From a virus, in IMG/VR virus record IMGVR_UViG_3300038701_002113, positions 1 to 40,963 of that record: a DNA stretch of 40,963 nt. One strand, 5' to 3'. The notes under the pieces were generated by a model. The model saw only the letters and a program-made list of their open reading frames with translations. It did not search any database and was not told where the DNA came from. This document shows positions 8,861-11,840 of the stretch, in pieces; position 1 is the first letter of the stretch; the number at the start of each line of letters is the position of its first letter. Both the position numbers and the translations under genes were made by a program.

Positions 8861-8885
8861 TTCCCATTCCGCAGGAGACCTGACC

Positions 8886-10085
8886 TTGACATGGTGCTAC
8901 CACCCCGAAACGGACTTTCCCTCTGCGCCGGGGCCGGTGGCCTCGATATGGGCCTCATGCTCGCAGAACCCGGCTTCCACACCCGCTGCTTTGTCGAATG
9001 GGAAGAGTACCCACGGCAGGCCCTCATTGCCGCCCAGCGGGCCGGATACTTCGCCCCCGCGCCAATCTGGGATGACGTCACCACCTTCGACGCGACGCCC
9101 CTCGCCGGATGCATCGACACCCTGCTTGCCGGATACCCCTGCCAGCCGTTCAGTCAGGCCGGACAGCGCAAGGGAGAGGACGACGAACGCCACCTCTGGC
9201 CCGACATCGAACGGATCATCGGGGAACTCGGACCCGGCCTGCGTTGGTGCTTTTTCGAGAACGTCGCGGGGCACCTCACCCTCGGCCTTGAAACCGTGCT
9301 GCGAAGCCTTCGAGACTTGGGTTTCACGCCTGCGGTTGGCGTATTCTCGGCGGAAGAAGTCGGCGCGCCGCATGAAAGGCAGCGGGTTTTCATCGTGGCC
9401 CACCGCCGTGTCGAACGACGACAACAAGTCGCTGGAGGGTCATCTGGCGATGAAGAAGCGCATGGGAGAGCGCGACGGATCGGGCGCGAACCGGACCGCC
9501 GTCACGAGCCTGCAGGTGATGGCAACGAACTGGCCGACCCCGATGGCGGGCACCCCGCGCGGGTCGGACGGGGAGAAGGGCGGCCCGAACATGAGCTTCG
9601 GAGCGGGCGGTACACCCCTGCCAGCGCAAGCGGCGAACTGGACCACGCCACAGGCCCACGACGTGACGGCGCGGGGCAGCGGACAGGTGCCGACATCGAA
9701 GGCGGGGAACGCCTGCCTTGCGACGGACGCGAAGGGATTTTCCCGCCCGGCCCCGGCGACATGCCCGCATGGTCTGCCACCCTCGCAATGGCGCCAGATC
9801 TCGCGCCGGCTGTTGCGTTCGGTGACATCGCACGTCAAGCAAGCCAGCTTGCGCAGATGGTTGCGGCGGGGGAGCTGGAAAAAGCGGCGGCTGAACCCGC
9901 TCTTTGTCGAATGGTTGATGGGCTGGCCTCCCGGTCACGCGCTCTGCGACTGCTCGGCAACGGCGTTTGCCCACTGGCAGCAGGACATGCGTGGCGCACT
10001 CTCAGCGCTGCCCACGGCCTCGGGCGCGTGGATCTGGGAACCGCCGAGTGAGAGCGCGAAACCGCAACAGATGGCGCTGATATGA
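8886..10085 (+). CDS. Overlapping WPTP-repeat protein in a second frame
   Basis: A 399-codon open frame lies on the same strand as, and out of frame with, the methyltransferase. From about residue 140 it looks like a known phage protein type: WPT at 171, NWPTPMAGTPRGSDGEKGGP near 214, NWTTPQAHD near 251, LNPLFVEWLMGWPPG near 340 and a RGALSALPTASGAWIWEPP tail. I recall such (W/L)PTP and EWLMG(W/L)P elements in phage methyltransferase proteins, sometimes in frame with the catalytic motifs. Its TGA overlaps the next gene's ATG as ATGA (10082-10085), like other joints in this operon, while the methyltransferase stops 30 bp short. A TTG at 8886 sits 8 nt after AGGAG; an ATG at 9372 is the conservative start. 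The first 140 residues may be only a shadow. Confidence 0.5.
   Translation: MTWCYHPETDFPSAPGPVASIWASCSQNPASTPAALSNGKSTHGRPSLPPSGPDTSPPRQSGMTSPPSTRRPSPDASTPCLPDTPASRSVRPDSARERTTNATSGPTSNGSSGNSDPACVGAFSRTSRGTSPSALKPCCEAFETWVSRLRLAYSRRKKSARRMKGSGFSSWPTAVSNDDNKSLEGHLAMKKRMGERDGSGANRTAVTSLQVMATNWPTPMAGTPRGSDGEKGGPNMSFGAGGTPLPAQAANWTTPQAHDVTARGSGQVPTSKAGNACLATDAKGFSRPAPATCPHGLPPSQWRQISRRLLRSVTSHVKQASLRRWLRRGSWKKRRLNPLFVEWLMGWPPGHALCDCSATAFAHWQQDMRGALSALPTASGAWIWEPPSESAKPQQMALI
8891..10051 (+). CDS. C5-cytosine DNA methyltransferase
   Basis: A 386-aa protein with the core motifs in order: motif I LSLCAGAGGLDMGL (residues 9-22), motif IV GYPCQPFSQAG with catalytic Cys84, motif VI ENVAGH (124-129), motif VIII HERQRVFIVAH (161-171) and motif X LLGNGVCPLAAGHAW (355-369). 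It transfers a methyl group from SAM to C5 of cytosine; phages use this against host restriction. Residues about 172-335, where the target-recognition domain should lie, are Arg/Gly-rich and low in hydrophobic residues. The same DNA is open in another frame (8886-10085). AGGAG at 8873-8877 is 13 nt from this ATG, longer than usual. The target sequence cannot be predicted. Confidence 0.85.
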   Translation: MVLPPRNGLSLCAGAGGLDMGLMLAEPGFHTRCFVEWEEYPRQALIAAQRAGYFAPAPIWDDVTTFDATPLAGCIDTLLAGYPCQPFSQAGQRKGEDDERHLWPDIERIIGELGPGLRWCFFENVAGHLTLGLETVLRSLRDLGFTPAVGVFSAEEVGAPHERQRVFIVAHRRVERRQQVAGGSSGDEEAHGRARRIGREPDRRHEPAGDGNELADPDGGHPARVGRGEGRPEHELRSGRYTPASASGELDHATGPRRDGAGQRTGADIEGGERLPCDGREGIFPPGPGDMPAWSATLAMAPDLAPAVAFGDIARQASQLAQMVAAGELEKAAAEPALCRMVDGLASRSRALRLLGNGVCPLAAGHAWRTLSAAHGLGRVDLGTAE

Positions 10086-10615
10086 CTGACCAGTCCCGTT
10101 TCCGCGAATACGTCACCAGCGGCGCCTTCAAGCTGACCCTGTCCCGCAACCAGGTATCGGCGCTCTCGATGATCGCCGAGGTCGGCGACGTTTCATGCGG
10201 CGGGCACACCATGGGCGCGCTGTTCCAGAAAGGACTTGTGACCCACATCCGCAGCGCCTGCGGAAAGCTGGAATACCGCCTGACAGAGGCCGGGGCTTTT
10301 GCCCTGAAGCTGGTCAGGCTGGCGGATCTGGTCCAGGGCGCGCCGGATCCCGTCGCCGAAGAGCTCGCCGCCCTGCGCAAACAACTGGACCAAGCGCGGC
10401 GGCACGCCCAGCAACTCGCAGCGGACGCATGGGACATGAGCGCGCGGGTTCAGAGGGCAGAACGGGCTGTGGCCGAGGCAAAGGCGATGATCTACGGCAC
10501 GCCAAATCCACCCAAGCCGGTCGTGACCATGAAAAACAGGCACCCGGAACGCAGCCAGAAAGACATTCTCGCCCACCTGACCGTGGCAGAGAACTTTCTG
10601 GAGGGCGGGACATGA
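10082..10615 (+). CDS. Winged-helix and coiled-coil early protein
   Basis: A 177-aa protein beginning MTDQSRFREYVTSGAFKLTL. Residues 10-75 look like a winged helix: a helix (SRNQVSALSMIAEV), MGALFQKGLVTH as recognition helix, and KLEYRLTEAGAFAL as wing, as in MarR-like 'new, unannotated leftover' modules. Residues 85-135 form a coiled coil (EELAALRKQLDQARRHAQQL). It probably binds DNA. It is coupled upstream to the second-frame protein (ATGA) and downstream to the HTH gene (ATGA 10612-10615). Confidence 0.65.
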   Translation: MTDQSRFREYVTSGAFKLTLSRNQVSALSMIAEVGDVSCGGHTMGALFQKGLVTHIRSACGKLEYRLTEAGAFALKLVRLADLVQGAPDPVAEELAALRKQLDQARRHAQQLAADAWDMSARVQRAERAVAEAKAMIYGTPNPPKPVVTMKNRHPERSQKDILAHLTVAENFLEGGT

Positions 10616-11001
10616 CCGCACCGCTTCCCTCTTGGGCGATCGAGCCTCTGGACCGTGCCGGCGCGGCGCGGGCGCTGGGAATCAGCCTGCGGACCTTGAC
10701 AGAGAAGCTCAAGGCGCACCCACATTACGAACGCCGGGGGAATCGGTTCGTGTTCTACCCCGAACACATCGCGGCGCTGCGGGAGGCCCTGAATTGTCCA
10801 ACCTCAAACTCACCAACCGGGGCGGCATCTGGTACGCCACCGGCACCGTTGCCGGGCAGCGCATTCGAAAGAGCCTTGGCACAAGCGACCGGCAAACCGC
10901 CGCAGAAATCGCGGCGCAGTTCGAGGCCGACCTCTGGAAACGTCACGTCTATGGTGACGCGGCGGTCCGCACCTTCGAAGAAGCCGCCCTCAGCTACATG
11001 A
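10612..11001 (+). CDS. HTH protein, possible excisionase, overlapping int
   Basis: A 129-aa protein beginning MTAPLPSWAIEPLDRAGAAR. Residues 12-60 form an excisionase/MerR-like HTH: RAGAARALGISLRTLTEKLK, then a basic wing YERRGNRFVFYPEHIAAL. The C-terminal 65 residues are Ser/Pro/Lys-rich and overlap the integrase gene by 208 bp in another frame. Proteins of this layout directly before int are common in alphaproteobacterial prophages and a role in excision is plausible. GAGGGCGGG precedes the start, which overlaps the previous stop. Confidence 0.65.
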   Translation: MTAPLPSWAIEPLDRAGAARALGISLRTLTEKLKAHPHYERRGNRFVFYPEHIAALREALNCPTSNSPTGAASGTPPAPLPGSAFERALAQATGKPPQKSRRSSRPTSGNVTSMVTRRSAPSKKPPSAT

Positions 11002-11840
11002 ACCAGGGCGGAGAGCCGCGGTTCCTAGCGCCTCTGCTGATCCGGTTCAAGGGCCGCTCCATCGGCAGCATCAAACCCGGAGAACTGCGCGAGGCGGCGC
11101 TGGCGCTTTACCCGCAGGCCGCCCCCGCCACCCGCAACCGACAGGCCATCGTCCCGGCCCGCGCCGTGATCAACCACGCGGCCTCGCTTGGCTGGTGCCA
11201 GACGATCACCGCCAGGCTGTTCCCGGCCGGGCGCAGCCAGAAACACCAGCCGGTCGATCGCGACTGGATCGACGCCTTTATGGCGCAGGCGGACGGCGAC
11301 GGCCTGCCGCACCTGTCGGGCATCGTGCTGTTCATGCACCAGACCGCCGCGCGCCGGTCCGAGGCGGTGCGCCTGATGGGCGATCACGTCGACCTCGACC
11401 ATCGCATCGCCGTGCTGGAACGGACCAAGACCTCGCAGCATTCGGTGCGCCACCTGACCGCCGAGCTGGTCCTGCGCATTGCCGCGCTGGACCCGCGCGC
11501 CGGGCAACCGGTGTTTCGCTACACCGAACCCTCTGCCGTGAACCGCCGGATGCAGGCTGTCTGCGCCCGCGCCGGGATCCCCTACCGACCCACGCACAGC
11601 GCCGGGCGGCACTCGTTCGGCACCAACGCCATGGCCGACGGCGCCCGGGTGCGGGAGGCGATGGAGGCGGGCGACTGGAAGTCGGCGCGGCTGTTCCTGG
11701 AAACCTACGTGCACGAGGACCGGGATGCGGGCCGAACACTGGCCCAGAAGATGGACGCCAAGCGCGGGCCGATTGCCTCAGATCCGGCACACAAGCCCAC
11801 GGAGAAGCGATATCGCTTTGAAAAGCCTAGAAAATCCTGA
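10794..11840 (+). CDS. int: Tyrosine integrase
   Basis: A 348-aa tyrosine recombinase. Residues 1-60 resemble an arm-binding N-terminal domain (SNLKLTNRGGIWYATGTVAG), about 60-150 a core-binding domain, and 160-315 the catalytic domain. Visible catalytic positions are Arg187 (TAARRSEAVRL), Lys212 (ERTKTSQ), His268/Arg272 in THSAGRHSFGT with the spacing H-x3-R-H, Trp295 and nucleophile Tyr305 (FLETYVHED). The start is a TTG at 10794 placed 8 nt after GGGAGG; no ATG fits the conserved N-terminus. It integrates the phage at the tRNA-Thr site whose 3' half follows at 11853. The last codons hold the palindrome AAGCGATATCGCTT. Confidence 0.88.
   Translation: MSNLKLTNRGGIWYATGTVAGQRIRKSLGTSDRQTAAEIAAQFEADLWKRHVYGDAAVRTFEEAALSYMNQGGEPRFLAPLLIRFKGRSIGSIKPGELREAALALYPQAAPATRNRQAIVPARAVINHAASLGWCQTITARLFPAGRSQKHQPVDRDWIDAFMAQADGDGLPHLSGIVLFMHQTAARRSEAVRLMGDHVDLDHRIAVLERTKTSQHSVRHLTAELVLRIAALDPRAGQPVFRYTEPSAVNRRMQAVCARAGIPYRPTHSAGRHSFGTNAMADGARVREAMEAGDWKSARLFLETYVHEDRDAGRTLAQKMDAKRGPIASDPAHKPTEKRYRFEKPRKS
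11805..11818. repeat. 14-bp palindrome near the end of int
   Basis: AAGCGATATCGCTT, identical to the core of the palindrome at 13499-13512 upstream of the ribbon-helix-helix/serine-recombinase operon. It is centred 42 bp before attP and inside int codons for KRYRF. It may be a binding or crossover site shared with that module. Confidence 0.55.

Follow-up and report, generated by a model that had tools for sequence, protein, structure and literature searches.

Does the methyltransferase locus of this virus encode one protein, two unrelated proteins overprinted on the same DNA, or one enzyme divided between two reading frames? The window, by which we mean the whole stretch of DNA analysed (40,963 nucleotides, positions 1 to 40,963 of IMG/VR virus record IMGVR_UViG_3300038701_002113), contains one 1.2-kb stretch in which both 8891-10051 (frame A) and 8886-10085 (frame B, +1 relative to A) are open. 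In bacteria and tailed phages, two conserved genes are believed to share a long same-strand overlap only rarely, and such overlaps are excluded by annotation programs. An earlier note, made from the sequence alone, had proposed either two overprinted proteins or a frameshift that joins motifs I-VIII to the WPTP part of the second frame. Frame translation and profile matches bore out the coordinates and content that it gave for both frames, and the sequence likewise bore out the spacing of the AGGAG to the two starts and the ATGA overlap at the end of B. The locus is laid out as follows:

8873-8877, + strand: Shine-Dalgarno-like AGGAG (from the sequence), 8 nt from the B start and 13 nt from the A start.
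8886-10085, + strand: frame B, full-length +1 overprinted protein of 399 aa, TTG start read as M.
8891-10051, + strand: frame A, C5-cytosine methyltransferase alpha-like chain of 386 aa, with motifs I-VIII and X and without motif IX.
10082-10615, + strand: next gene, in ATGA overlap with the stop of frame B.

The start codons, TTG at 8886 for B and ATG at 8891 for A, are 5 nt apart, and the stop of frame A lies 34 nt upstream of that of frame B.

Frame A matches PF00145 over residues 9-175 (E=2.6e-31) and phrog_363 over residues 9-374, motif X included (E=1e-55). Alignments of relatives show residues G14, P83-C84-Q85, E123-N124-V125, R163/R165 and G356-N357 to be invariant or nearly so, and the motifs previously read from the sequence, I, IV (PCQ), VI (ENV), VIII and X, are indeed present in this frame. 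A PF00145 enzyme carries motif IX in the same chain; no motif IX-like match was found in frame A, neither in the window nor in the two-frame loci, and the element sits in frame B instead. The sole clear match of A in the PDB is to an M.HhaI-like catalytic domain, with about 175 aligned columns of the 386 residues. In the predicted structure of A, residues 1-178 are mostly confident (catalytic part mostly pLDDT >90), while residues 187-280 are disordered (pLDDT <50).

A protein search with the second frame alone, which had been suggested as a check, returned phrog_27243, a family of unknown function (E=1.5e-42, covering B residues 282-398), and phrog_1008, a DNA methyltransferase family (E=3e-24, B residues 81-359). 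In addition, phrog_26627, also of unknown function, matches B residues 335-360. The portion of the phrog_1008 profile that follows the one matched by B is matched by A residues 342-372; in phrog_1008, the WPTP/EWLMG part and motif X are in one frame, whereas in the window they are in different frames. Both phrog_27243 and phrog_26627 are probably methyltransferase beta-like chains. No PDB sequence matches the B profile, and the Pfam search gave neither an HNH nor any other match for frame B. The alignments for the structure models were built without two rows from annotated records. The model of B alone is poor (mean pLDDT 58), so that a recognition domain is not visible as a fold, and B residues 1-140 are predicted to be largely disordered, with a pLDDT of mostly about 40-58.

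Are both frames maintained? Related loci were gathered with B peptides, with A peptides and by alignment of the A catalytic half alone, the last of which involves no selection for B. In the main set of 237 non-redundant loci, +1 stops were counted over the first 155 catalytic codons and compared with a synonymous-codon shuffle that preserves the A protein and its codon usage. We found 55 +1 stops, all of them in 12 loci, versus 525.5 expected, and 225 of the 237 loci had none, versus 29.1 expected; the relatives are not independent, and these observed and expected counts are therefore not formal probabilities. Neighbouring genes from the same loci (n = 157) showed no depletion (885 +1 stops versus 854 expected). 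An earlier set of 142 loci had given 9 +1 stops versus 312 expected, and 679 versus 750 in the third frame. When, reciprocally, the B codons of the middle region were shuffled, 45 frame-A stops were observed versus 515 expected, and frame A was open through the middle in 130/138 loci versus 8.1 expected; the third frame again showed no depletion (903 versus 815). Even among close loci, third positions have diverged by about 0.5 across most of the catalytic half. Each frame is thus depleted of stops where the other is the obvious coding frame, which shows that both frames are maintained, with purifying selection in both beyond the expectation for one frame, as in an overprinted pair. The overprinting reading is thereby supported: B is open across the catalytic half from its own start, and A is open to motif X. 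Stops in B beside an intact A, which the earlier note had named as evidence against overprinting, are very rare. Stops in the middle of frame A occur several times each in six homologues of one clade and once in two more loci, with B intact in all eight, and a continuous A chain is therefore not universal. In the window alone, the +1 frame stayed open in 1% of the shuffles of A (P=0.010), which is just mildly unusual and suggestive only.

The start of frame B is conserved in its own right. An ATG, TTG or GTG start codon lies 2 nt upstream of the A start in 79 loci and 5 nt upstream in 47, and the B N-terminus reads M-x(0-2)-W-x-x-(x)-P in 133/146 loci, compared with 1.6% of random windows. W3 and P7 are invariant in an alignment of 66 B proteins, while frame A has no conserved W and P. 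This indicates that B is read from its 5' end and not via a shift past motif VIII.

Which of the two frames is under selection changes along the gene. The ratios of synonymous to nonsynonymous changes, taken as counts of single-difference codons among 26 close loci, are:

8891-9230: A 3.45-3.53, B 0.16-0.26.
9231-9380: A 1.70, B 0.58.
9381-9490: A 0.90, B 0.85.
9491-9690: A 0.13-0.14, B 2.57-4.49.
9691-9850: A 0.7, B 0.7.
9851-9920: A 0.19, B 4.11.
9921-9990: A 2.36, B 0.68.
9991-10051: A 0.6, B 0.95.

The third frame stays at 0.1-0.45 throughout. By segment, these ratios place selection on A at motifs I-VIII and X, and on B at the WPTP region and LNPLFVEWLMGWPPG. Codon-position substitution rates and the structure models agree with this switch of frame. 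The rate at the third codon position of A is 0.19-0.32 in 9491-9690 and 9851-9910 versus 0.36-0.52 in the catalytic half; within 9491-9690, the first position of A changes at 0.46-0.47 versus 0.19-0.26 for the third, and in the WPTP and motif IX segments no position changes faster than the degenerate one of B. A-synonymous change is thus strongly reduced in two parts of 9370-10051, where an absence of such a reduction would have spoken against overprinting. A two-frame signal had been anticipated over 9370-10051 only; it is present there, but it extends over the whole gene. The segments and elements are:

8891-9410, + strand: frame-A-selected segment, catalytic domain with motifs I-VIII, A residues 1-173 (syn/nonsyn ratios, pLDDT).
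9396-9722, + strand: frame-B-selected segment with WPTP repeats (W171, W216), probable target-recognition region (syn/nonsyn ratios, substitution rates).
9740-9778, + strand: frame A FPPGPxDxxxW element ahead of motif X, with P286, P288 and W294 nearly invariant.
9891-9938, + strand: putative motif IX in frame B, LNPLFVEWLMGWPPGH, B residues 336-351, mostly invariant or nearly so in 64 B proteins.
9938-10006, + strand: motif X in frame A, ALRLLGNGVCPLAAGHAW, within A residues 350-372, with G356, N357, V359 and A367 invariant (syn/nonsyn ratios).
9951-10001, + strand: frame B tail CSATAFAHWQQDMRGAL over motif X, consensus CSATxxxxWxxxMRxALSxL, both frames constrained.

Frame B over 8891-9410 is an open, predicted-disordered passenger, and A residues 187 to 280, approximately, are likewise a predicted-disordered passenger.

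By its position and its relatives, the LNPLFVEWLMGWPPG sequence in frame B, an LNPxFVEWLMG(W/F)P element, appears to be the motif IX that is missing from A. The WPTP repeats and this element had been noticed before and are present, but their probable identity as recognition region and motif IX had been missed, and it is this identity that makes the two proteins most likely parts of one enzyme. A direct alignment to M.HhaI in the motif IX region is weak (-2.2 bits); the assignment therefore rests on position and on intermediates in which everything is in a single frame. In the single-frame loci L266, L041 and L042, E(W/Y)M(M/Q)G(L/V)P is in frame with motifs I-VIII and X. The element is LNAKFVEYMMGLPVGW in L266, where PF00145 covers 5-317 of 324, and LSPAFVEWMMGLPLGH in L041, in both cases between the variable region and motif X. 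L266 and L041 have 10 +1 stops versus 10 expected, hence no +1 constraint, and the +1 frame of L042 is unconstrained as well. Mycobacterial, Gordonia and Arthrobacter phages have split pairs: motifs I-VIII are on the first gene, though incompletely in one pair, and LPTP repeats, motif IX and motif X are on the second, which is in the +1 frame. Pairs annotated as 'DNA methylase' that look split in this way are L195 (Arthrobacter phage KBurrousTX gp79/80), L277 (Mycobacterium phage Jarcob gp69/70), L278 (Kampy gp78/77) and L281 (Gordonia phage Upyo gp54/53). A nested type, in Paenibacillus phage Diva and the viral contigs L252, L253 and L273, has motif IX on a +1 protein and motif X on A; the +1 protein of Diva (L276, 1325-2029) is gp50, annotated as 'g49 internal gene'. 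Stand-alone WPTP/EWLMG proteins may exist as well. In L008, L065, L113, L134 and L150, motif X is shifted forward by one frame relative to motifs I-VIII and motif IX by two, with the WPTP part in the motif X frame in at least L008, L065 and L150; these are either sequencing errors or further layouts.

We consider it probable that the locus is a full-length overprinted pair, most likely encoding one two-chain C5-cytosine DNA methyltransferase. Ribosomes would start at two sites separated by 5 nt (by 2 or 5 nt in relatives), and the two products, one from frame A and one from A+1 and each about 390 aa long, would then associate. A would supply the catalytic domain (motifs I-VIII) and motif X, and with these AdoMet binding and chemistry. 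B would supply motif IX, as the beta chain of M.EcoHK31I does, and the WPTP region between motifs VIII and IX as target-recognition region, and with both would complete the small domain. The remaining stretch of each protein would be an open passenger, its sequence dictated by the other frame, and the near-coincident starts on one message would keep the A:B ratio fixed. We further infer that recognition of DNA falls to the WPTP region and that phage DNA is the substrate of the enzyme; the two-chain activity itself is proposed by analogy.

It seems improbable to us that the two proteins have separate jobs, in which case A would be a methyltransferase complete in itself and B would act independently, for instance to regulate or inhibit the methyltransferase or host restriction. 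Both products are conserved, A retains motif X and a continuous reading frame, and the B-matching families phrog_27243 and phrog_26627 are labelled as of unknown function, all of which such a division of labour would accommodate. A complete enzyme in frame A is, however, at odds with its lack of motif IX, with the location of the selected VIII-to-X stretch in B, and with a middle part of A that is unconstrained (0.13-0.19) and predicted to be disordered. Furthermore, the B element is found in the methyltransferase chain itself in the single-frame relatives, or in the second methyltransferase chain in the split ones.

A programmed frameshift, by which translation of A (motifs I-VIII) would move +1 to continue in B (WPTP, motif IX) and might return to A (motif X), is very unlikely, and the second of the two original readings is not borne out. 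It would restore in one chain the order of motifs I-VIII, recognition region, IX and X that the single-frame relatives have, and the second chain of the split relatives is also in +1. In a programmed frameshift, however, the downstream frame is open only past the shift site, whereas here both are open beyond need: B is open over the catalytic half and has a conserved N-terminus, A is open through the middle, a frameshift needs neither, and two opposite shifts would be required. That B is open and start-conserved upstream argues strongly against this route from A to B.

Hardly any weight can be given to the idea that B is untranslated and its open frame simply reflects high G+C, biased codon usage or a frameshift that recently hit a formerly single-frame gene, since, although GC-rich genes often have long alternative frames, the window contains 191 ORFs of at least 80 aa and its P(open) on its own is modest, the codon-shuffle, third-frame and neighbour-gene controls rule out a GC or codon-bias artefact and the substitution rate at the degenerate position of B speaks against it as well.

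How does the proposed two-chain enzyme relate to known systems? The small chain of M.EcoHK31I (YGGCCR), about 176 aa, is read in a frame other than that of the large chain, as B is, but within the gene of that chain, from an internal start. In the window, by contrast, B is full length, its start is 5 nt upstream of that of A, and the catalytic half is also read in frame B. Due to this full length and upstream start, part of A and part of B are passengers whose sequence is set by the opposite frame. Of the two chains that make up M.EcoHK31I, a natural and working C5 methyltransferase, the large one has motifs I-VIII and X and the small one motif IX (PMC3404938), and A and B divide the motifs in the same way. 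The recognition region of M.EcoHK31I has been assigned to the large chain (PMC3404938), whereas the selected WPTP region of the window is in B. M.AquI-type split enzymes and the phage pairs likewise consist of two chains, the second with the distal variable region and motif IX, and the second chain of the actinobacteriophage pairs is in +1 as is B. The second chain of M.AquI-type enzymes carries motif X in addition to motif IX, whereas motif X is on A in the window, and the split phage genes barely overlap or adjoin, whereas the overlap here is complete. Diva gp49/gp50 has a +1 internal protein with W(P/A/G)TP repeats and LNPDWVECLMGFPIGW, like B, but this protein starts inside the catalytic domain, leaving the 5' part of the gene single-coded. 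In phrog_1008 and in L041, L042 and L266, an EWMMGLP-like element and motif X are preceded by a variable region, as here; all motifs of these three loci are in one frame with an unconstrained +1 frame, in contrast to the two frames of the window. A second protein in another frame of a phage methylase gene also occurs in mycobacteriophages with the ShiLan element, which is a homing HNH endonuclease inserted there (PMC11855218). Unlike that element, B matches neither HNH nor anything else in Pfam and lies over the domains of the methylase itself, and we reject an inserted HNH or other mobile gene as an explanation of B. In the open-licence literature searched, we found no description of a full-length overprinted methyltransferase with interleaved domains. 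Overprinting and split C5 methyltransferases each have precedents; in those papers, a full-length interleaved pair kept in hundreds of loci has none.

More than 200 non-redundant loci retain the overlap over its full length. Most come from alphaproteobacterial phages and prophages, and others from Myxococcus, from genome bins of Micavibrio, Chloroflexi and Acidobacteria, and from phages of Synechococcus and Vibrio. The annotated records examined show the layout wrongly or in part. Frame B or a piece of it is annotated as 'hypothetical protein' in Synechococcus phage Ssp-JY39 (L001, 2081-3196), as 'cytosine-specific methyltransferase' in Acidovorax phage Alfacinha3 (L003, 1406-2572) and as 'DNA methyltransferase' in Roseicitreum plasmid pRA03 (L279, 3512-4261), with A omitted in each. 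The two-frame layout explains such database errors, in which B is labelled a methyltransferase and A is left out in some records. The locus is also a directly testable case of one enzyme divided between two frames of one gene, for which the single-frame, split and nested relatives are usable controls.

A quick tree of 80 A catalytic halves, the rooting of which is not fixed, places single-frame and split genes on one side and nested and full-length genes on the other (SH-aLRT 97). The main nested group branches apart from the full-length genes, and the full-length label can be placed on the tree with 3 changes, whereas every one of 500 shuffles required more. An order from single-frame genes via a split in +1 and nesting to full overlap is plausible. 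In the clade of L154-L156, L084, L122 and L108, frame A is broken several times past motif VIII while B is intact. Motif X is there on an ORF of its own of about 90-150 aa:

L154: 2901-3209.
L155: 1542-1817.
L156: 2904-3176.
L084 and L122: 2901-3176.
L108: 1551-2000.

In 5/6 members, a conserved ATG follows shortly after the last in-frame TGA, with GAGGG or GAAGG between them, and the clade possibly has a three-chain methyltransferase. More broadly, we are inclined to think, with some reserve, that these loci form a widespread prokaryotic class. Both full-length proteins would be read off one stretch of DNA, the domains of a single enzyme would alternate between the two frames, and one half of each protein would be functional and the other a passenger. 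The class would have arisen stepwise from a single-frame methyltransferase via split and nested stages, all of them extant, and in the clade just described the enzyme would have come apart into three, with a separate restart ORF for motif X.

The locus is part of a tailed-phage genome. None of the neighbouring genes that were checked could be identified as an endonuclease, so that this phage methyltransferase looks like an orphan. An integrase gene (phrog_1, E=2e-28) lies at 10632-11840 of the window, two genes 3' of the methyltransferase, and the virus is therefore likely to be temperate. Gene matches in the window place tail, capsid and terminase genes further downstream of the integrase.
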